DNA of 64,000 bases, taken from Chromobacterium paludis (GTDB lineage Bacteria; Pseudomonadota; Gammaproteobacteria; Burkholderiales; Chromobacteriaceae). Below are positions 3,001 to 53,912 of this stretch, piece by piece (the stretch's first letter is position 1; the number at the start of each line of letters is the position of its first letter). Below the pieces are notes generated by a model. That model was given only the letters and a program-made list of their open reading frames with translations. It was not told where the DNA came from and searched no databases. The translations under genes and the position numbers were made by a program. The stretch lies in the NCBI RefSeq assembly GCF_008275125.1, contig NZ_CP043473.1, forward strand, positions 1,674,001 to 1,738,000. Direction: 5' to 3'.

Positions 3001-6000
3001 GAGGCGGCGTTGAGGTCGAGCTGGCCGTTGCCAGCGATCTTGCCTTGATTGTGCAGATCATTGGCGATCGTCAGACTGCTGGCGGCGTCCTTGCCCAGCG
3101 CCAGGATTTGACCGGCGTTGCTCAGGGAACTAGCCGTCAGTTGCAGGTCTTGGCCGGCTTGAATGCTGCCGCCGACGTTGTCGAGCTTGCCGGCGTTCAA
3201 TTTGAGCTGACCGTCGCTGCCGACCACGCCGTCGTTATGCAACGTATCGCTGACCGTCAGGTCGACGCCCTGGCCGCCGATCAGGCTGCCTTGAGCATTG
3301 TTCAGCGTGTGCAGATCGCCCTTCAGTTGGTTTTGCGCATAAATCTCACCGGCCTGGTTACTCAGGCTATCGGCTTTGACGTTCAGGCTCTGCGCCGCGA
3401 TGTGGCCGCCGTCGTTGGCCAAACTCGTTTGCTTGGTCAGGTTCAGCGCGCCGGCTGCTTGCAGCGTGCCCTTGGCGTTGTCGACGGTGGCGGCGTTGAG
3501 GTCGAGCTGGCCGTTGCCAGCGATCTTGCCTTGGTTGTGCAGATCATTGGCAACCGTCAGACTGCTGGCGGCATCCTTGCCCAGCGCCAGGATTTGGCCC
3601 TTGTCGGCATTGCTCAGGCTTTGCGCCGTCAGCTGCAAATCCTTGCCCGCCTGGACTGAGCCGGCCGCATTCTCCAATTTGCCAGCGCTGAGCTTCACTT
3701 GGCCGTCGCTGCCGACCACGCCGTCGTTGTGCAGCGTATCGCTGACCGTCAGGTCAACGCCTTGGCCGCCGATCAGGCTGCCGTGCCTGTTGTCGAGGGT
3801 CTTCAGTTGGCTGCTCAACGCACCTTGGGCGTAGATTTCGCCCGCCTGATTGCTGAGGCTGTCGGCTTTGACGTTCAGGCTCTGCGCCGCGATGTGGCCG
3901 CCGTCATTCGTCAGGCTGCTCTGCTTGGTCAGATTGAGCTGACCCGCCGCTTGCAGCGTGCCCTTGGCGTTGTCGACGGTGGCGGCGTTGAGATCGAGCT
4001 GGCCGTTGCCGGCGATCTTGCCTTGGTTGTGCAGTTCGCCCGACACAGTCAGGCTGCTGGCCGTATCCTTGCCCAGCGCCAGGATTTGGCCCTTGTCGGC
4101 ATTGTTCAGGCTGCTGGCGCTGAGCTGTAAATCCTTGCCGGCTTGGATGCTACCGCCGACGTTGTCGAGCTGGCCGGCGTTCAATTTGAGCTGACCGTCG
4201 CTGCCGACCACGCCGTCGTTATGCAACGTATCGCTGACCGTCAGGTCGACGCCCTGGCCGCCGATCAGGCTGCCTTGAGCATTGTTCAGCGTGTGCAGAT
4301 CGCCCTTCAGTTGGTTTTGCGCATAAATCTCACCGGCCTGGTTACTCAGGCTATCGGCTTTGACGTTCAGGCTCTGCGCCGCGATGTGGCCGCCGTCGTT
4401 GGCCAAACTCGTTTGCTTGGTCAGGTTCAGCGCGCCGGCTGCTTGCAGCGTGCCCTTGGCGTTGTCGACGGTGGCGGCGTTGAGGTCGAGCTGGCCGTTG
4501 CCGGCGATCTTGCCTTGGTTGTGCAGATCATTGGCGATCGTCAGACTGCTGGCGGCGTCCTTGCCCAGCGCCAGGATTTGGCCCTTGTCGGCATTGCTCA
4601 GGCTTTGCGCCGTCAGCTGCAAATCCTTGCCCGCCTGGACTGAGCCGGCCGCATTCTCCAATTTGCCAGCGCTGAGCTTCACTTGGCCGTCGCTACCTAG
4701 GGTGCCGTCGTTATGCAACGTATCGCTGACCGTCAGGTCGACGCCCTGGCCGCCGATCAGGCTGCCGTGGGTGTTGTCGAGGGTCTTCAGTTGACTGCTC
4801 AACGCACCTTGGGCGTAGATTTCGCCTTCTTTATTGCTCAGGCTGTCGGCTTTGACATTCAAACTCTGCGCCGCGATGTGGCCGCCGTCGTTGGCCAAAC
4901 TCGTTTGCTTGGTCAGGTTCAGCGCGCCGGCCGCCTGCAGCGTGCCCTTGGCGTTGTCGACGGTGGCGGCGTTGAGGTCGAGCTGGCCATTGCCGGCGAT
5001 CTTGCCTTGGTTGTGCAGATCATTGGCGATCGTCAGACTGCTGGCGGCGTCCTTGCCCAGCGCCAGGATTTGACCGGCGTTGCTCAGGGAACTAGCCGTC
5101 AGTTGCAGGTCTTGGCCGGCTTGAATGCTGCCGCCGACGTTGTCGAGCTTGCCGGCGTTCAATTTGAGCTGGCCATCGCTGCCGACCACGCCGTCGTTGT
5201 GCAGCGTATCGCTGACCGTCAGGTCGACGCCCTGGCCGCCGATCAGGCTGCCGTGGGTGTTGTCGAGGGTCTTCAGTTGGCTGCTCAACGCACCTTGGGC
5301 GTAGATTTCGCCCGCTTGGTTGCTGAGGCTGTCGGCTTTGACGTTCAGGCTCTGCGCCGCGATGTGGCCGCCGTCGTTGGCCAAACTCGTTTGCTTGGTC
5401 AGGTTCAGCGCGCCGGCTGCTTGCAGCGTGCCCTTGGCGTTGTCGACCGTCGAAGCGTTGAGGTCGAGCTGGCCGTTGCCAGCGATCTTGCCTTGGTTGT
5501 GCAGATCATTGGCGATGGTCAGGCTGCTGGCGGCGTCCTTGCCCAGCGCCAGGATTTGGCCCTTGTCGGCATTGTTCAGGCTGCTGGCGCTGAGCTGTAA
5601 ATCCTTGCCGGCTTGGATGCTACCGCCGACGTTGTCGAGCTGGCCGGCGTTCAATTTGAGCTGACCGTCGCTACCTAGGGTGCCGTCGTTATGCAACGTA
5701 TCGCTGACCGTCAGGTCGACGCCTTGGCCGCCGATCAGGCTGCCGTGGGTGTTGTCGAGGCTCTTCAGTTGACTGCTCAACGCACCCTGGGCGTAGATTT
5801 CGCCCGCCTGATTGCTGAGGCTGTCGGCTTTGACGTTCAGGCTCTGCGCCGCGATGTGGCCGCCGTCATTCGTCAGGCTGCTCTGCTTGGTCAGATTGAG
5901 CTGACCGGCCGCTTGCAACGTGCCCTTGGCGTTGTCGACGGTGGCGGCGTTGAGGTCGAGCTGGCCATTGCCGGCGATCTTGCCTTGGTTGTGCAGATCA

Positions 6001-34534: not shown

Positions 34535-34619
34535 GCGAGAGTGGCGGAATTGGTAGACGCACTGGATTTAGGTTCCAGCGCCGCAAGGCGTGAGAGTTCG
34601 AGTCTCTCCTTTCGCACCA
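34535..34619 (+). tRNA. tRNA-Leu (anticodon UAG), CCA encoded
   Basis: An 85-nt class II tRNA. The acceptor GCGAGAG pairs with CTTTCGC (one G-U). The anticodon stem CTGGA/TCCAG holds loop TTTAGGT with anticodon TAG. It has a long variable arm, T-arm GAGAGTTCGAGTCTCTC and a terminal CCA. tRNA-Leu 3' ends are frequent phage integration sites; an integrase remnant follows 158 bp downstream. Confidence 0.97.
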
Positions 34620-44662: not shown

Positions 44663-45046
44663 TTACCTGGCATTCTCAAAATCGAGAGCTGCCGCGGCAT
44701 CAATATTGTGAAAAAAGACCGAGATGGCAGAATCCATTTTGAACAGCGCCATGTCATCGCCACGATGGAAGCTAGTGACATAGCCATCGACGCGCTGATC
44801 GCTCAGCCACTCCAGCAGATCCGTAGTTTTCGAGACATCAACCAAGGCGAAACTGATGTGAATATCAAATGGGTTATACAGGCCGCCAAGCTGCAGCCGC
44901 GATACCGAAAACGGCGGCTCTTGAAGATGAATCTCCGAACCAATCAGGCGCTGTATCAGCCCGTCTACACGCTCGGCCGCACTCAAAACGCTATTGCGGT
45001 CGATGCGATCCAGCATCGTCGTGGTGAACTCCACTGCTGATTGCAT
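44663..45046 (-). CDS. Unknown phage protein
   Basis: 127 aa, MQSAVEFTTTMLDRIDRNSV, mixed alpha/beta character (PFDIHISFALVDVSKTTDLL, DGYVTSFHRGDDMALFKMDS). AGGAGAG upstream. Not recognised. Confidence 0.65.
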   Translation of the reverse strand: MQSAVEFTTTMLDRIDRNSVLSAAERVDGLIQRLIGSEIHLQEPPFSVSRLQLGGLYNPFDIHISFALVDVSKTTDLLEWLSDQRVDGYVTSFHRGDDMALFKMDSAISVFFHNIDAAAALDFENAR

Positions 45047-45068: not shown

Positions 45069-45389
45069 TCAACTGCGAGCGCGCACCCTGTACGCTCTCC
45101 GCTTCTGAATGGAAAATGCCAGTCGGCGAGCCAGGCCTGACGTCACCATCATGGAGACCAGCTCGTGCGCCACTCCCTGGCTCAGGCCCAGCTTGTAGGC
45201 CACATCCAAACTGGTGAATGGCGCCCCTCGCATGGCTTTGGCGACCTGTGCCATTCGGCTGGTGTCGAGGTCTTCCATGCGGGCGCATGGCATCAACTTG
45301 CTCGCCGCAGGGATGGAGTGGAACAGTTGCGCCAGGGTGGGTATGGGGATGGCGGCACCAGGCCGCCGGGTTTGCCTCAGCTCGACCAT
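45069..45389 (-). CDS. Unknown protein, possible winged-helix DNA-binding fold
   Basis: 106 aa. The C-terminal two thirds (MAQVAKAMRGAPFTSLDVAYKLGLSQGVAHELVSMMVTSGLARRLAF) read like a winged helix: helix, helix, recognition helix, wing. This would suit an early phage regulator. The N-terminal 35 residues are Pro-rich and may not be translated. Start overlaps rdgC. Confidence 0.5.
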   Translation of the reverse strand: MVELRQTRRPGAAIPIPTLAQLFHSIPAASKLMPCARMEDLDTSRMAQVAKAMRGAPFTSLDVAYKLGLSQGVAHELVSMMVTSGLARRLAFSIQKRRAYRVRARS

Positions 45390-46327
45390 GGCGCGTCCTT
45401 TTCTGCTGCAACTTCGAGCTGAGGATTGCCTGCCTGGCTCTCCTCCAATCCTCCCAGGGCCGCAACGAGATCACCGATCAGCTCGCCCAGCGCCTCCGTC
45501 ATCAGCAGGAAGGTGGCTTCGAAGAGACTGTCTCGGTCATCGCCGGCATGGCTGGCCTCGTCCTGCAGCACGTCCCGGAACTGGATGCGCTTGAGCTGCA
45601 GCGTGTCGGTCAGCTGGAAGCGGATCTTCTCGTTCCAGATCAGGCCCAGCTTGGTGGCCTGCTTGCCGGTGGCGATGTGCTGGCGGATCTCGTCGCTGGT
45701 CAGGTCGATCCGGCTCACGCGCACCACCGCGCCGTTCTCACTGCCGTCTTTCAGCAGCGCGTCCTCGTCCAGCTCGAAGCCAGCCGGCGCCGCGCCGGCA
45801 GCCAGCCAATCCGTCATAGCGGTATGCGGTGCGATCTTTGTTCTCGGCAGCGCAGCGGGGAACGGCGGCAATGCCTCGCGCAGCTTGGAAACCAGCCCCT
45901 CCGCCTTGGTGGATGAGCTGGCATCCACCACCAGCCAGTTGCCGGAGATAAAGGCCGGGATGCCGCCCTCCTTTGTCAGCGCCTTGGGCAGCAAGTCATC
46001 CGTGACCTGCTCCTTCAGCGCCTGCTGCTCCTTGCGCCCCACCTTGCGCAACTCCTTGGCCTCTACCGTGGCCACCCTCTCCGCCAGAGCCTTCTTGATC
46101 GCCGCTGGCGGCAGAATCTTGTCCTCGCGCAGCAGCCGCACCAGATGGCGCTCCCGCGCGCTGTACACCATGCCTTCCAAGTGCGACGCCGCCGGCATCC
46201 AACCCTCGCTGAACCAATCCAGGCCGGCACATGGCTGAAATTGGCGTGCGGCCAACTTTTCATTCAGGACAGCCGCGTCCAGCATTTCCGCAAGCCGGAA
46301 CAAAACCACGTTTTTGAACCAAGTCAT
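45377..46327 (-). CDS. rdgC: Prophage-encoded RdgC, recombination-associated DNA-binding protein
   Basis: 316 aa. RdgC forms a ring-shaped dimer around duplex DNA and limits RecA-dependent recombination. MTWFKNVVLFRLAEML matches the family N-terminus, followed by FVPC-like ARQFQPCAGLDWFSEGWMPA, LLPKALTKEGGIPAFI, WLVVDASSSTKAEGLVSKLREAL, LTSDEIRQHIATGKQATKLGLIWNEKIRFQLTDTLQLKRIQF. I chose the second ATG (46327) because AAGGA lies 6 bp upstream and E. coli RdgC begins at the equivalent MLWFKN. It sits in the leftward early block, where phages keep recombination genes. Confidence 0.92.
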   Translation of the reverse strand: MTWFKNVVLFRLAEMLDAAVLNEKLAARQFQPCAGLDWFSEGWMPAASHLEGMVYSARERHLVRLLREDKILPPAAIKKALAERVATVEAKELRKVGRKEQQALKEQVTDDLLPKALTKEGGIPAFISGNWLVVDASSSTKAEGLVSKLREALPPFPAALPRTKIAPHTAMTDWLAAGAAPAGFELDEDALLKDGSENGAVVRVSRIDLTSDEIRQHIATGKQATKLGLIWNEKIRFQLTDTLQLKRIQFRDVLQDEASHAGDDRDSLFEATFLLMTEALGELIGDLVAALGGLEESQAGNPQLEVAAEKDAPWSS

Positions 46328-46329
46328 TC

Positions 46330-46685
46330 TCATCCTTCAATGGAAACGGTTTGAATACCCAGGCGCTTCAGCGTCAAAGGCTCTTTTAAGGCCTTGGCCT
46401 CAGCCAACTTGGCGTCAAAGTCCTGCAGGCTGATGCTGTTGCCCGCGTTGTCGTAGATCCGCCAGCGATGACGCAGGCCCAGGCCCTTCATCAGCGCCGA
46501 GAAGTGACGCTGTGCGCCCAGCAGCGCCGCGGTGAAAAGGTGAACTGCTGAAAAGCTGCAACCGGGGGGGCTTCCCACTCAATCCTGGCGTGCCCCATCG
46601 GCAGGTCATGCTCGCCATCGGTAATTCGGAGCGTAAGCGCGGCGTGGTACTTTTCCAGCTGCTGGTGTTGGGCTTTCTTTGCCAT
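46330..46685 (-). pseudogene. Unknown phage gene split by a frameshift
   Basis: The gene starts at 46685 with GGAGGAG upstream (MAKKAQHQQLEKYHAALTLR, GEHDLPMGHARIEWEAPP) and stays in frame to FQQFTF, then meets a stop. The next frame supplies a natural continuation (FTAALLGAQRHFSALMKGLG, then WRIYDNAGNSISLQDFDAKL) ending at 46330 in overlap with rdgC. The switch point is the four-A run at 46535-46538 (TTTT on the coding strand); one extra T would restore the frame. So this is a sequencing error, a recent mutation or programmed slippage. Function unknown. Confidence 0.65.
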
Positions 46686-47029: not shown

Positions 47030-47107
47030 CTACCTCCATTGCCCGGCCACGGCCAATACCGCCAGCACAGCCAGGTAAACGATGAAAATGGTGACAGCGC
47101 GCCTCAT
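47030..47107 (-). CDS. 25-aa membrane microprotein
   Basis: MRRAVTIFIVYLAVLAVLAV followed by AGQWR: a positively charged start, one hydrophobic helix and a short polar end. Its ATG overlaps the stop of the upstream 45-aa gene (ATGA), and the next gene's ribosome-binding site lies at its end. This tight coupling supports translation. Role unknown. Confidence 0.5.
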   Translation of the reverse strand: MRRAVTIFIVYLAVLAVLAVAGQWR

Positions 47108-47241
47108 GCCACGCGCCGAATGGTGTGGACGGGTAGTCCGCTTTTCCCGAAGAACTCGAAGTGGAGCCGCTTACCCTGCAGCCGATACAAATCAGCCAAC
47201 TCCTCGCCGATCCAGCCGATGATGTACTCCGTAAAGCGCAT
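47104..47241 (-). CDS. 45-aa phage microprotein
   Basis: MRFTEYIIGWIGEELADLYR, then LHFEFFGKSGLPVHTIRRVA. GGAGG lies 4 bp upstream of the ATG at 47241, just after a terminator for the gene to its right. Function unknown. Confidence 0.6.
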   Translation of the reverse strand: MRFTEYIIGWIGEELADLYRLQGKRLHFEFFGKSGLPVHTIRRVA

Positions 47242-47361: not shown

Positions 47362-47868
47362 CTATTCCGCCGCGTCTTGACTGAGGCTCGGAATCTTTCC
47401 GGCCACATCGGCAATGCACGGGAAGGAAGTGAGGCTTCCCTCGCAGTGAAAGCAGGCCATCTCGAAGGCAGCCGCCGGGACGTGTTGGAAGTGTTCGGTC
47501 CAGATCTGGACTTCGCGATTGAACTCGCGCGACTCTCCTTCCGAGGGCATGCCGAAGACGATGTAGAATCGTACCAGCCGGTCCTTCACGATTTCAGGGA
47601 TAACGTTCATGGCAGTTTCTGCAACAAACAATCCCGGAGAAATGGTCTTCACGCCCGTGCGCGGCGGCTCAATGTGCCCCACAGCCCCCATTCGGCTCTT
47701 AAGCACGAATTCGACATTCCGGCTCCTCCTACCCTGGTAGATGACCAGATCAAACTCGGCGCTTGCGGAAACGATGTCTGGCTTGAGGTCATAAAGAGTT
47801 GGGCGTCTGCCGACAACATCAGCTAGCATGTCCTCGTCATCAACGAACATCACTCGACCTTGAATCAT
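47362..47868 (-). CDS. Unknown phage protein
   Basis: 168 aa, MIQGRVMFVDDEDMLADVVG, beta-rich with EFDLVIYQGRRSRNVEFVLK, GVKTISPGLFVAETAMNVI and a C-terminal CFHCEGSLTSFPC pair of cysteine motifs. AGAGAGG precedes the ATG. Followed by its own terminator at 47,253. It looks like an independently expressed unit; function unknown. Confidence 0.65.
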   Translation of the reverse strand: MIQGRVMFVDDEDMLADVVGRRPTLYDLKPDIVSASAEFDLVIYQGRRSRNVEFVLKSRMGAVGHIEPPRTGVKTISPGLFVAETAMNVIPEIVKDRLVRFYIVFGMPSEGESREFNREVQIWTEHFQHVPAAAFEMACFHCEGSLTSFPCIADVAGKIPSLSQDAAE

Positions 47869-47920
47869 GGAAAACCTCTCTGAGTTGTGGTCTGTAACTT
47901 GGCTACCAAAGCAAGCGACG

Positions 47921-48124
47921 ATGAGCTTTGAAACCGTGGAAGAATTGATCCGAAAAAACCAAGGGGCCTTTCGGAATCGTGACCCGCTGGAACCCGGCGC
48001 GCTGGGTGGCGTGACGCTTTTCATCGGCCCCAAGTCTGAAGCGAAGATCGTGGCCGATGACCTTCAACGAAGACTGCATGCAGACAGCGACCTTCGCGTC
48101 GCCGAGGAGGAAAAACATGGATAG
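47921..48124 (+). CDS. Small unknown protein
   Basis: 67 aa, MSFETVEELIRKNQGAFRNR, LFIGPKSEAKIVADDLQRRLH. No good ribosome-binding site at this ATG; an upstream ATG at 47867 coincides with the start of the divergent gene. Overlaps the next gene by 8 bp. Its strand is opposite to the surrounding leftward block. Confidence 0.5.
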   Translation: MSFETVEELIRKNQGAFRNRDPLEPGALGGVTLFIGPKSEAKIVADDLQRRLHADSDLRVAEEEKHG

Positions 48125-48323
48125 ACCTGAAGCATTGCGTCTTGCTGCCACCCTTCACGCCGGCCGGCTGGCCTCGATGGAGGGCGAAGGCTACGTCCAA
48201 GACGATGAAGTGGTTGAGGCGGTCATGAAATTGGCCGACAAAATCCAACAAGAGGCCGTTAAACGCCGCCCAAAGATCAACGTCTCAGCCGAGGCGTTGG
48301 CAAAGGCTGCTGTGCAAAAATAA
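48117..48323 (+). CDS. Small unknown protein
   Basis: 68 aa, MDRPEALRLAATLHAGRLAS, then DDEVVEAVMKLADKIQQEAV and INVSAEALAKAAVQK, all helical. GAGGAGG is 6 bp upstream. Its last bases overlap the tail of the minus-strand terminator of the predicted noncoding RNA, so the two transcripts converge. Confidence 0.6.
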   Translation: MDRPEALRLAATLHAGRLASMEGEGYVQDDEVVEAVMKLADKIQQEAVKRRPKINVSAEALAKAAVQK

Positions 48324-48348
48324 ACCGCCCAGCCAGGTGGCTGAGCGG
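48315..48348 (-). terminator. Terminator of the P_L noncoding transcript
   Basis: On the minus strand CCGCTCAGCC (48348-48339) pairs with GGCTGGGCGG (48334-48325, one G-T pair) around ACCT, followed by TTTATTTTTG. A strong intrinsic terminator. Confidence 0.85.
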
Positions 48349-49201
48349 CAGTATTGGTGCTGGCCTTTAACGTCGCCTGCTGATTCACCAACAGGAAAAA
48401 GAGGAGTACACCCTTTGTTGCTGCGCCCTCTCGGACGTTTGGTACTGCGCGCAGCTCGGGAGATCCTTTTTTTAGCGCCCCCTCTTTCCTGTTGGTGCCC
48501 GTTTAGCGACCGGGCCAGTCGTATAAGCCGTTCTTGCGCAGGCCGCTCTCGCCTGTTTCCTGCATGCCCTGAGCAAACCGCCGGGCCAGCGAGCCTTGTC
48601 AAAACACGGATACGGGCTATTTTTCGTCGCCGCGCCGACGTGTGCTGCTCTCACACCGAAGCGGGCCGGGCTTGATACCGGCTTCGGGAAAGTGTCTATT
48701 GTGCTATCCCGCGTGTCCTTCCACGCCGCCGCTTCAGTGTGAGCCCTATTGCTAGGGTGCGCGGTCTCTCCCGCCGTCACGAATCTTTCGTCCATCGTCG
48801 CGCCGCTATCGGCAATGCGGTGTGCCGTTACGTGTCAAAGGCTGATTTATGCGCTACCCGCTCGCCACGCGGTCAGTACCCCATGCGCCGCAGCGCTTCC
48901 CTTGGCTGGGTAACTCGCCTTTCGCCAACTCCACCTGTTCGCTTCCTTTGCTCGGTCGCCTGGCCGTAGTCGCCAGTCCTTCTAAATCTCCAAGAGCGGT
49001 CACCAGCACCGCGCCCTGTGGCGGCTTCCGAGAGGGGCGGCTCGACCTCATCCCCTCTTAGCTGGCCCCCGCGTCCTGGCTCTCCGCCATTCATCCGCTA
49101 AACCGACCCTTGCTCTTCGCCGCGCGCTTCGCTCTTCGCATCCGCTTAGGCTTTCCGGTGTCGGTGTGGGCGCAACGCGCTGGGCGCTGCGGTGTTGATG
49201 A
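48316..49201 (-). ncRNA. Candidate large structured noncoding RNA from the phage P_L promoter
   Basis: An approximately 885-nt leftward transcript is bounded by P_L (49,236-49,208) and an intrinsic terminator. No ORF in it has a protein-like sequence plus ribosome-binding site. It is rich in self-complementary helices: GCAGCGC/GCGTTGC (49190/49178), AGAGGGG/CCCCTCT (49058/49037), CTGGC/GCCAG (48976/48964), TTGGC/GCCAA (48928/48906), CCCTA-GCAA-TAGGG with a GNRA loop (48757-48744), and CGTCG/CGACG (48640/48629). A 13-bp helix, CTCACACTGAAGC (48743) with GCTTCGGTGTGAG (48662, one T-G pair), encloses three further hairpins. A long arm, CACCAACAGGAAA (48497) with TTTCCTGTTGGTG (48398), lies near the 3' end. 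The RNA strand is purine-rich in loops. It is reminiscent of the giant ornate phage RNAs GOLLD and ROOL; membership is untested. Confidence 0.6.
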
Positions 49202-49207
49202 GACGTA

Positions 49208-49244
49208 ATGTAAACCTTGGTTTCCATTGATGTCAACCATGGTT
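49208..49244 (-). promoter_or_regulatory. P_L promoter with two repressor operators (O_L)
   Basis: On the minus strand TTGACA (49236-49231) is 17 bp from TTACAT (49213-49208), predicting a start near 49,201. Two palindromes cover it: AAACCTTGGTTT (49212-49223), at the -10 edge and in the spacer, and AACCATGGTT (49235-49244) at the -35. Their centres are 22 bp apart. The same AACC-NN-GGTT core recurs three times between the cI-like and cro genes. Confidence 0.8.
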
Positions 49245-49333
49245 TCATTTTTTGTTTAACTTCAGTTTGCATTTATGCCACATCCATCGCGGAGTAAAAT
49301 GCCAATGTCACAGACAAATATTGCGAAAAATTC

Positions 49334-51491: not shown

Positions 51492-51839
51492 ATGCTATCT
51501 CTCGCCGAGCGTATCCGTCACATGCGGCTGGAGCGCCGCTGGACCCAAGCGGAGCTGGCGCGCAAAGCGTCGGTCAGCCCCTCCACCATCAAGAGCCTGG
51601 AAAACGGCTACAACCGCAGCACCACCCGGCTCGCGAACTTGGCCAGAGCCCTCCGGGTGACGCCCGAGTGGCTGCAGACCGGCCGCGGCCCGCGCGATCC
51701 ACTATCGCCGTCCGAGGCCGCCTACATTGCCGCCGACAGCCTAGATGACCTGGCCGACAAGCTGCTGGATCGCGGCGCAGGCGAAATCGGCAAATTGATG
51801 ACCCTTCTCATAAAAAAACAAGCAGAACGAAATGGGTAA
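51492..51839 (+). CDS. XRE-family HTH regulator
   Basis: 115 aa. MLSLAERIRHMRLERRWTQA followed by ELARKASVSPSTIKSLENGYNRSTTRLANLARALRV, a textbook Cro/C1 HTH, then TPEWLQTGRGPRD. The C-terminus is short and helical (LDDLADKLLDRGAGEIGKLMTLL), with no peptidase domain. CACAAC is repeated upstream (51,441 and 51,462) around a TATAAT-like box at 51,434 and may be its operator. One of three small HTH proteins in the immunity region besides cro. Confidence 0.85.
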   Translation: MLSLAERIRHMRLERRWTQAELARKASVSPSTIKSLENGYNRSTTRLANLARALRVTPEWLQTGRGPRDPLSPSEAAYIAADSLDDLADKLLDRGAGEIGKLMTLLIKKQAERNG

Positions 51840-51951: not shown

Positions 51952-52287
51952 GTGTCCGACGAGACGATTCACTCCCGCCTGCGGGCAGCCATCAAGGCCC
52001 GCGGCATCACCGTAACAGCCGTTGCAGCCCACCTTCAGGTCAGCCGGTCTACCGTAAATCGCTGGCTGAAATACCAAATACCGGATGATGAGCAGATATT
52101 CAGGCTATCCGCATATCTGAACGTCAGCCCCTCTCACCTGCGAAGAGGCTCGGACATGAATGCCGAGCACATGATGCTATGCCAAATTCTATTCGCCAAG
52201 TCGACTGACATTTCGTCCAGTGACGTACAGCGGCTCATAGACCTGGCAGACAGGTTTTCTGACACAGATTTGTGTCAAACAGAATAA
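51952..52287 (+). CDS. Small HTH (Cro/C1-like) regulator
   Basis: 111 aa from a GTG start: MSDETIHSRLRAAIKARGIT, VTAVAAHLQVSRSTVNRWLKYQ (HTH), LSAYLNVSPSHLRRGSDM. The C-terminal tail (SSDVQRLIDLADRFSDTDLC) is helical. No ribosome-binding site is evident. It has candidate operators before it and inside its 3' end. Confidence 0.75.
   Translation: MSDETIHSRLRAAIKARGITVTAVAAHLQVSRSTVNRWLKYQIPDDEQIFRLSAYLNVSPSHLRRGSDMNAEHMMLCQILFAKSTDISSSDVQRLIDLADRFSDTDLCQTE
52260..52277. promoter_or_regulatory. Palindrome at the 3' end of the 111-aa HTH gene
   Basis: TGACACAGATTTGTGTCA, a near-perfect 18-bp dyad lying inside the coding end (SDTDLCQTE). It is a possible operator for the same regulator and could control the downstream 68-aa gene. 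Confidence 0.55.
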
Positions 52288-52624: not shown

Positions 52625-52646
52625 GGCGACCGCAAGGTCGCCTTTT
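52625..52646. terminator. Bidirectional terminator between the 68-aa gene and cI
   Basis: GGCGACC-GCAA-GGTCGCC (52625-52642), with TTTT on the plus side and ATTTTTC on the minus side. A GNRA-type loop caps it. Confidence 0.9.
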
Positions 52647-53016
52647 AGTTTGGTAGTTTCGCGCTATTTTCCGCAAGCAATCTAATGACTTGCAGCACCT
52701 CGTCAGGCCCCTTCTCCTTCACCTGGCGCACCAACTCTTCCAGAGTATTGGCAGCAACATATCCCCCGCCACTAGCCTCTGATTGCATTTCGCCCTTACC
52801 AGATGCCAACCAGTCCGCACTGACCTGCAGAGCTTTAGCAGCTTTGTAGAGGTTTTCCCCGTCAATCCCGGCTGTTGGATTGTTCATCCACTTGTAGGCA
52901 GCAGGACGTGACACGCCAACCTGGTTAGCAAGCCAGTTTGGCGTTTTTTTGCTTCCGGTCTTCTCGCTAAGGACGTCTAGCGCCTTGCGAATCCGGCTTC
53001 CAAGAGTATTTTCCAT
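52645..53016 (-). CDS. CI-like prophage repressor (short, no peptidase domain)
   Basis: 123 aa. MENTLGSRIRKALDVLSEKT, then TPNWLANQVGVSRPAAYKWMNNPTAGIDGENLYKAAKALQVSADWLASG, an XRE HTH typical of lambdoid repressors. The C-terminus is only a short helical segment (LEELVRQVKEKGPDEVLQVI), so it lacks the LexA-like self-cleavage domain. Induction may then need an antirepressor or another route. The ATG at 53016 has no clear ribosome-binding site, as for lambda cI from P_RM. Divergent from cro across three operators. Confidence 0.82.
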   Translation of the reverse strand: MENTLGSRIRKALDVLSEKTGSKKTPNWLANQVGVSRPAAYKWMNNPTAGIDGENLYKAAKALQVSADWLASGKGEMQSEASGGGYVAANTLEELVRQVKEKGPDEVLQVIRLLAENSAKLPN

Positions 53017-53018
53017 GA

Positions 53019-53082
53019 TAACCAAGGTTAGCGGATATTTTGCAAACCTAGGATTGCATTGAGTGTAAACCATAGTTATCAT
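53019..53082. promoter_or_regulatory. O_R: three repressor operators and P_R
   Basis: Three related dyads with AACC-NN-GGTT-type cores lie at 53019-53030 (TAACCAAGGTTA, perfect), 53044-53055 (AAACCTAGGATT) and 53067-53078 (AAACCATAGTTA), with centres 25 and 23 bp apart. A rightward promoter TTGCAT (53054-53059), 17-bp spacer, TATCAT (53077-53082) overlaps the second and third. This is the lambda O_R plan. Confidence 0.82.
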
Positions 53083-53089
53083 CCTGAGC

Positions 53090-53308
53090 ATGAGAACAGC
53101 CATTGTCGTTTCGTACTTTGGTCCTGGCCGCGGCTCAAAAGCTCGCATCGCCAGGTCGCTAGGCGTCTCCACTGCTGCGGTTGCAAAGTGGGGCGAGACC
53201 GTGCCCGACGGCAGCGCTTACCAGTTGATCCGACGTTTCCCTGAGTTGGACCGGATGGATAAGGAAGACTGGGCAAAGTCGAGTTCATCAGGGCCATCTA
53301 CTGAGTGA
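53090..53308 (+). CDS. cro: Cro-like repressor
   Basis: 72 aa. MRTAIVVSYFGPGRGSKARI, then ARSLGVSTAAVAKWGETVPDGSAYQLIRRFPEL, the compact HTH of Cro/DicC-type proteins. First gene of the rightward early operon, divergent from the repressor. The -10 of P_R ends 7 bp before the ATG, so the message may be leaderless. Confidence 0.88.
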   Translation: MRTAIVVSYFGPGRGSKARIARSLGVSTAAVAKWGETVPDGSAYQLIRRFPELDRMDKEDWAKSSSSGPSTE

Positions 53309-53339: not shown

Positions 53340-53912
53340 ATGAGAAAACCACAGTTTCAATCTCCCACCGACACCCTGATCCTCTGGGCGGATCGGCAGA
53401 TGACCGAGACCCGGCAGCCGCTGCTGAAGTTCGCTGAAGCGCTGACCGACACCTACCTCGACATGGTGCCGGAGGACCGCCGCACCTGCCCGCTGGATGA
53501 AATCCCCATCGACGGCAGCGTGGACGACCACTACCGCATCCAGAAGAAAAACGCCCTCGCCGTGGAGCGCTGGGTGAAGGGCACCATCAAGCTGCCGCTG
53601 GAGATTCTGGATGCCTGGATCGCCACTCTGCAGGGCGAGTACCGCGCCGGCTGCGTGGCGGACTTGCTTGAGCGGCACAACATGACCGCGGTGCCGGCCA
53701 TTGACCGCGCCGACGCCGCCACCTTCGCCAAGACCATGCACACCACCGCGGACATGATAGGCGCCCTCGCCTGCATTGTGGCGGATGGCGTAGTGGACGA
53801 GCAGGACAGGGAAGACATTGTCCGCGCTCAGCAGCAGATGCGCATCCTAAAGGGCCAGATGGCCGGCTGGGAGAAAGCCTTCAACGCGGCGTTGTCAGGT
53901 GGGCGGGAATGA
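53340..53912 (+). CDS. Unknown early phage protein (cII position)
   Basis: 190 aa, MRKPQFQSPTDTLILWADRQ, QPLLKFAEALTDTYLDMVPED, LEILDAWIATLQGEYRAGCVADLLERH. All helical with an acidic end. AAGGAA precedes the ATG. It occupies the position of cII between cro and the replication genes, but I see no CII-type HTH. Regulatory role is an inference from position only. Confidence 0.7.
   Translation: MRKPQFQSPTDTLILWADRQMTETRQPLLKFAEALTDTYLDMVPEDRRTCPLDEIPIDGSVDDHYRIQKKNALAVERWVKGTIKLPLEILDAWIATLQGEYRAGCVADLLERHNMTAVPAIDRADAATFAKTMHTTADMIGALACIVADGVVDEQDREDIVRAQQQMRILKGQMAGWEKAFNAALSGGRE

Follow-up and report, generated by a model that had tools for sequence, protein, structure and literature searches.

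A predicted mosaic of base-paired RNA modules, with a recurrent clamp, in a Chromobacterium prophage leader

What does a prophage gain from an early promoter that opens onto almost no coding sequence? In a prophage of Chromobacterium paludis, a promoter covered by operators and a terminator enclose an ORF-poor stretch of ~885 nt (49201-48316, minus strand). Positions are those of the window, the whole 64,000-nt stretch of DNA that was analysed. A sequence-only reading of this locus had proposed a structured noncoding phage RNA; the structure, the apparent absence of coding and a plausible repressor-controlled leftward promoter all stand, while a single giant fold from end to end does not. We regard the stretch as very probably a functional structured RNA. 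Comparison with its relatives shows it to be a mosaic of independently exchanged base-paired modules set between promoter and terminator, and one of these, M3, belongs to a type of phage RNA clamp that is widespread (Table 1).

Boundaries and coding content of the leader

The window holds a lambda-like immunity region. The minus-strand promoter that had been described beneath two repressor operators is indeed present (TTGACA-18-TACATT, 49236-49207, minus strand, 10 of 12 positions matching), in a scanned 4.5 kb where four promoter-like sites were found and 1.6 are expected. Exact copies of RAAACCNNGGTTKA occur only twice in the window, at 49233-49246 and 49211-49224; with up to two mismatches there are 14 matches, compared with 7.0 expected. 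Control by the repressor is plausible because the start of the repressor gene (53020-53079) holds operator-related copies, AACCAAGGTT and a second with two mismatches. Parts of 49190-49300 are also resembled by three other loci (L026, L028 and L030; 77-85% identity). By eye, the upstream operators vary among leaders, and a 5′ hairpin and boxA recur. Downstream, the small gene past the second terminator may originally have headed the early operon, and by eye alone it resembles the first gene past the leader in L028. A tRNA match (55.1 bits) also lies inside the window, at 34535-34616.

At the 3′ end, the sequence-only reading had placed an intrinsic terminator where the next gene begins. The terminator is there, in a region where such sites are no commoner than chance (three found, 5.0 expected), but no gene begins at it; the neighbouring 88-aa ORF (48057-48323) lies on the opposite, plus strand and ends there. 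The block 48316-48380 recurs in L024 and L025 at 94-95%. Between the leader terminator and the next terminator-led gene are two ORFs without a PHROG or Pfam match (47867-48323, plus; 47362-47868, minus).

Within the stretch, the longest ORFs are 107 aa (minus) and 112 aa (plus). Short unannotated genes would be one account of the locus, and they could draw on the minus-strand ORFs and on ORFs seen by eye between modules in some relatives. Eight ORFs compared with PHROG gave no match at E 0.1, the M1 alignment contains 1- and 2-nt gaps that break the frame between relatives, and paired changes preserve helices, which leaves small proteins hardly credible. The view that no ORF here is credible is thus upheld, and a coding role was rejected, as the ORF and PHROG searches gave no support.

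The helices named earlier were found as placed: the GCAA hairpin, the closing helix, the GCGTG/CACGC, GGGA/TCCC and GCCGG/CCGGC stems and the long arm. Over its full length the stretch has a folding energy of -372.2, compared with -349.5 (sd 8.9) for 20 shuffles (z -2.55). The expectation of a better-than-shuffled folding energy holds at this scale and fails locally, where thirteen 120-nt windows (z -0.90 to +1.92) behave like 40 control stretches (mean -0.14, sd 0.88). Folding energy supports a structured RNA weakly.

Exchange and covariation of the modules

Table 1 Features of the window around the leader
Feature	Position	Strand	Basis or content
RdgC gene	45377-46333	minus	leftward of immunity region
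Small gene past second terminator (47281-47263)	47104-47240	minus	ORF/terminator scan
Intrinsic terminator	48315-48349	minus	11-pair stem and 4-nt loop 48349-48324, then TTATTTTTG
M5, long arm closed by CACCAACAGGAAAGAGG/CCTCTTTTTCCTGTTGGTG	48386-48497	minus	likeness to Aeromonas phage ST4
M4 (CAGGC/GCCTG and CCCG/CGGG hairpins)	48497-48557	minus	13-sequence alignment
Linker, shared in part with L027	48562-48649	minus	59 nt at 83% (into M3), 27 nt at 93%
M3 clamp	48650-48743	minus	outer helix; P2 48711-48726; 28-nt insert holding 48686-48710; P3 48665-48682
GCAA-capped CCCTA/TAGGG hairpin preceding M3	48744-48757	minus	drawn from sequence
M2	48757-48820	minus	93% identity to L021, 86% to L027
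M1 with loop pseudoknot (CCCA/TGGG type)	48831-48977	minus	7-sequence alignment
M0, 5′ module	48977-49201	minus	5′ hairpin 49172-49190; helices CCGAC/GUCGG, TGGC/GCCA, AGAGGGG/CCCCTCT
Leftward early (P_L-like) promoter with two AAACCNNGGTTT operators on -35/-10	49207-49246	minus	sequence scan
HTH gene	51492-51839	plus	immunity region
HTH gene	51952-52287	plus	immunity region
Likely lysogeny repressor gene (HTH)	52645-53172	minus	PHROG 4 transcriptional repressor, E 4e-13
CII-like activator	53340-53912	plus	immunity region

Searched with blastn, the 886 nt matched 9 of 19 genomes of the genus and 14 of 61 of the family, own genome included, with no listed match longer than 244 nt apart from the own genome; an Aquitalea plasmid carries a piece of M1. 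The modules recur singly, reordered and with other neighbours in Chromobacteriaceae prophage leaders. The window has the order M0-M1-M2-M3-M4-M5, and other orders, read partly by eye, are M1-M2-M4 (L021), an M3-like piece, linker, M2, M4 (L027), M3, M1b, M4-like (L028 and L057), M1b-M3 (L026) and clamp, ORF, M1, clamp, ORF, M4 (L048). M3 precedes M1 in L028, L057 and L048 and follows it in the window, L026 and L023; M0 leads into M1 in the window and into a clamp-like start in L067; and M2 comes after M1 in L021 and after the M3-like piece in L027. By eye, several relatives carry a GCCGCTTC..GAGGCGGC-type hairpin in place of the GCAA-capped one. The idea of one conserved giant RNA does not survive this swapping, reordering and single use of parts.

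Covariation is strong evidence for the predicted structures of M1, M3 and M4. For M1, alignment A1 takes seven of 13 distinct sequences, leaving out six of type b with a different second half; across its 25 pairs, 97.7% of cells are paired, and double changes affect 8 pairs and 16 cells. In 500 shuffles the paired share, both double-change counts and the covariation score were never equalled (311 reached the number of pair types), and slid structures were 27-47% paired. The M3 frame (A2) was built from 11 sequences stripped of their inserts, without three near-duplicates (L053, L058 and the second clamp of L048). Its 23 pairs give 97.1% paired cells, and both partners have changed in 8 pairs and 19 cells, figures that include row L023a, misaligned in P2, and an Aeromonas row whose 5′ arm is misaligned too; 0 of 500 shuffles were as high on four measures and 3 on pair types. 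M4 (A3, 13 sequences, near-duplicates left out) has 94.7% of cells paired, with both-side changes at 5 of 11 pairs and in 10 cells, and its pair count was reached by 14 of 500 shuffles and the other four measures by none. Covarying pairs among homologues, whose absence had been named beforehand as a refutation of the structured RNA, are therefore present in three modules.

M0 is 82-83% identical to the leaders of L067 and L082 over 167 of its 225 nt, and of the 68 pairs of its predicted fold, L067 leaves 36 unchanged, changes 4 on one side and 10 on both, and breaks 18. M5 matches Aeromonas phage ST4 at 86.6% identity over 127 columns (E 1e-31). Its frame (A4) has 90.0% of cells paired, with double changes at 8 of 15 pairs and in 16 cells, a covariation that is partly circular since the eight arms were picked as complementary.

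A model of M1 (R1) matched 12 of 61 family genomes, own genome included. Over 369 genomes of the class it returned the own genome only, a search that scored 8 candidates per genome under strict filters and so does not prove absence. Blastn of the window RNA against 5,426 E. coli genomes gave no match, yet phage P1 has clamps (see below), so blastn is too insensitive to judge the spread.

A clamp around a variable insert

The clamp consists of an outer helix, P2 just inside it, a variable insert, and P3 abutting the outer 3′ arm. The multibranch domain formerly drawn at 48743-48650 has the helices ascribed to it and is recast here as a clamp with type A loops and a hypervariable insert. Nearly the same outer helix occurs in L028, L057 and L048, whose clamps are of types A, B and C, and it encloses unrelated-looking inserts; among the clamps scored for loops, insert lengths run from 28 nt (window) to 176 nt.

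The loops fall into type A (GAAGGA with TATCAAGC, n = 5), type B (GAAAGCAGA with AGTAGCGC, n = 3) and type C (AGGCTGAT with AGATCAGCA or near, n = 7). In all 15 clamps scored, P2 and P3 carry loops of the same type (P 2.8e-6 under independence), as classified by regular expressions written once the types had been seen. L023b and L114, the latter with an imperfect P2 stem, were added by eye; L109 was dropped because its GAAGGA lies outside a hairpin and the same P3 has a nearer type C P2; and L027 and L023a, which have other loop types, were left out. In type C, the commonest, the GCUGA and UCAGC loops can pair. No loop-loop pairing is visible in types A and B, the window's M3 (GAAGGA, TATCAAGC) included.

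A 19-nt pattern for the type C P2 has at least 121 matches in at least 120 viral stretches. Among the 121 matches listed, a P3-like hairpin follows within 400 nt in 78, compared with 158 of 2,420 random stretches of the same loci. Full clamps, for which the P3 stem was relaxed and a TCAG-type loop with six or more of the 7 outer pairs demanded, stand at 89 of the 121 listed P2 matches and at 59 of 1,210 control starts on viral contigs, some of which may be true clamps seen from upstream. The full clamps among the matches listed comprise 62 distinct arm pairs, 29 distinct 5′ arms and 79 distinct inserts, with insert lengths of 26-162 nt (median 77). Over positions 2-8 of an initial set of 60 arm pairs, for which any GCYGG..CCGGC hairpin was accepted, 350 of 420 cells are paired, compared with a shuffled mean of 238 and maximum of 270; 60 inserts form 52 similarity groups. 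The exact P2 pattern was found in 5 of 398 Pseudomonadota genomes (not in the own genome), and the reversed control pattern in none.

Named phages with a full clamp are Cronobacter ES2, Klebsiella K751, Aeromonas 2_D05 and P1. In ES2 the clamp sits between an antitermination protein gene and the lysis genes, and around the K751 clamp (L254) ~2.7 kb carries no annotated gene. P1 (L252, OP279344) has two type C clamps (~1209-1342 and 1638-1737 of L252, near 65.6 and 66.1 kb of OP279344), one found by scan and the other read from the sequence, which lie between tRNA-Thr and tciA and flank an annotated 'hypothetical protein' on both sides. Their stems differ by compensating changes, with GCGC/GCGC and GCAC/GTGC in P2 and GCCGG/CCGGT and GTCGG/CCGAC in P3.

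The RNA of Aeromonas phage ST4 (L019, ~4560-5550) lies upstream of three tRNA genes, contains an annotated 47-codon hypothetical gene and stands with the tRNA genes between opposed genes. ST4 has a type C P2/P3 pair; at this pair in ST4 and 62AhydR11PP the full-clamp scan found no outer helix, its matches at ST4 506 and 62AhydR11PP 2616 being false. Pieces of the ST4 RNA recur in 20 Aeromonas records (ST4 and RefSeq copies included), covering 8-13% of the query per listed match apart from ST4, and in TS3 such a piece lies within the phage tRNA array. Queries from 4L372D and 2_D05 matched 21 and 14 Aeromonas records, respectively, sources included, some of them near relatives with broad coverage. 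In 2_D05 and 62AhydR11PP the region lies upstream of terminase genes, and that of 62AhydR11PP has an internal tRNA match (49.3 bits).

ARAGORN reported no tRNA gene in 19 of 20 loci, the remaining one giving the three known tRNAs of ST4, and none in 61 clamp inserts. A piece of L023 looks like tRNA by eye; scanning L023 against Rfam at E 10 returned no tRNA. By eye, L227 (from 3953, plus) carries a clamp-like element whose insert resembles a tRNA lacking its anticodon arm, the D arm running straight into the T arm; an imperfect P3 and a terminator come next. In L150 and L165 phage tRNA genes lie some 150-200 nt downstream of a clamp-like element. A weak hammerhead-like score just past P2 in L126 (3701-3779, minus; 28.2 of 52 bits) is probably chance. 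A query around the enterobacterial clamp of L169 matched 93 phage records; in Bas78 the match lies under annotated genes of the opposite strand.

Inverted repeats that are exchanged so freely could also act as DNA, as recombination or replication sites for cassette swapping that pair in single-stranded DNA, and the strong mosaicism and insert turnover fit such a role. Among all counted pairs, G.U cells outnumber A.C cells (27 vs 14, one-sided P 0.03), an excess that RNA of this strand predicts and that weakly supports it. The elements also share the direction of neighbouring genes or tRNAs in the annotated loci (window, ST4, 2_D05, 62AhydR11PP, ES2 and P1), and the M1 loop forms a predicted pseudoknot. 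Together these points make a DNA-level element unlikely.

Possible function and comparison with known RNAs

The host boxA reads TGCTCTTTAACAGA in the rRNA leader and CGATCTTTAACAAA in the spacer. A boxA with at most 3 of 12 mismatches to either is present in 19 of 25 leaders, with a mean of 2.16 mismatches compared with 4.70 after shuffling; the leaders were hand-picked from the loci and are not independent, since several (for example L049, L080 and L095) are near relatives. Eighteen of the 19 lie 25-40 nt into the cut stretch, which begins some 10-15 nt upstream of the supposed RNA start, and one lies at 102 nt. By this test no boxA was found in the window, L038, L039, L042, L067 or L082, the best in the window having 4 of 12 mismatches, which 26% of shuffles equal. 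By eye, L042 and L038 carry CGCTC(T/C)TTACACAA, which resembles lambda boxA. By kinship with these relatives, the window's prophage may use boxA too. In E. coli, boxA and Nus factors are proposed to protect rRNA transcription from Rho (PMC4807359), and the same protection would suit a long untranslated RNA.

Transcription, induction, boxA use by the prophage and, above all, function are what we infer in the following scheme. Loss of repression would let the early promoter make the RNA. The rRNA-type boxA of the relatives would let Nus-modified polymerase cross the long untranslated stretch, and the modules would fold into compact units that expose or protect a variable RNA cargo. Hypervariable inserts in a constant frame suggest such a display or protection role for cargo acting in trans, and these RNAs may act on the host early in infection, more probably for takeover or counter-defence than to control genes of the phage itself. 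Elements set apart from an operon leader, in ST4, P1 and, by eye, L227, count in favour of this view. We give this combined explanation (module mosaic, clamp, early-promoter RNA, boxA/Nus crossing and trans-acting variable cargo) a probability of about one half.

The leader position would equally suit regulation in cis, where the RNA would decide, through conditional termination or RNA-based antitermination, whether polymerase proceeds to the early or late operon, as precedented by the lambda nut and HK022 put sites. The predicted RNA would run from a regulated promoter to a terminator that operon genes follow, boxA stands near the 5′ end of most relatives, and the 2_D05, 62AhydR11PP and ES2 elements precede terminase or lysis genes. 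Such a leader is harder to reconcile with the ST4 region, which shares its place between opposed genes with tRNA genes, with the P1 clamps among tRNA genes and with hypervariable inserts, which a polymerase-binding site does not require; we find it doubtful.

Returning to trans-acting cargo, a wider proposal is tentative. Pseudomonadota phages may share an undescribed RNA cargo system, a loop-locked clamp that shields a fast-evolving insert, single or chained, in early or late leaders and tRNA clusters. Infection would then release stable RNAs that keep changing and are in part derived from tRNA; as decoys or regulators they would work against host functions, defence systems for example. The literature covered, from which most subscription journals are absent, yielded no account of modules or clamps like these. 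Recurrence of the clamp in P1 opens the role of modular phage RNA to simple deletions.

Among known systems, rRNA leaders with Nus boxA antitermination share with 19 of the 25 leaders the hairpin (by eye) and the host-like boxA near the 5′ end, and differ in that phage modules come next here and the window's own copy is not recognisable. The lambda late leader before S (L250, ~44877-44985) has, by eye, a possible outer helix GTTGTGCTG/CAGCACAAC after a clamp-like flank; it differs in having no clamp by scan. The 5′ part of the ST4 RNA (L019, 4550-4658) resembles STnc100/PasD (RF02076) at 39.1 bits (E 1.1e-6; gathering score 47), a family placed in lambdoid prophages by two reports (PMC13192938, PMC12370729). 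Neither the window region, scanned at E 10, nor 12 relative loci, scanned at the gathering score, yielded STnc100. Above gathering scores, Rfam hits were confined to tRNAs, C4 and isrK, none over the modules, and the rest were sub-threshold, so membership of an Rfam family was rejected.

The ICP1 noncoding transcript, about 800 nt, ORF-less and the phage's most abundant by RNA-seq (PMC7567579), is comparable to the ORF-poor window stretch in coding content and size. It differs in that comparison with Aeromonas RNAs showed no convincing likeness in sequence and scanning revealed no clamp; its best match (32 nt at 81%, with E 0.003, the database being tiny) was rejected as homology.

GOLLD and ROOL, to which the sequence-only reading had likened this RNA, are described as large structured phage or prophage RNAs, often near tRNA genes and sometimes with embedded tRNAs, whose role is unknown (PMC12286853). 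With the ICP1 transcript, they are large phage RNAs without a settled role. The phage setting, size and ornate fold are shared, as are the tRNA neighbours in ST4 and the embedded tRNA match in 62AhydR11PP, which could speak for a GOLLD- or ROOL-like RNA that assembles itself into a cage. Kinship finds no backing in Rfam 15, which gave no such match in the window at the gathering score or in the region at E up to 10, and the GOLLD and ROOL covariance models had no match in the relatives scanned. Module order and content also vary by locus, unlike a fixed oligomeric fold, and we judge a cage very unlikely. The clamp, to which an Rfam 15 scan of 18 clamp loci gave no match, would instead add a family of its own. 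Set beside GOLLD and ROOL, the stretch differs in its predicted mosaic make-up, with reusable modules that measure some 60-225 nt apiece in the window, and such modular RNAs would add an RNA layer to the known modular exchange of phage genes.
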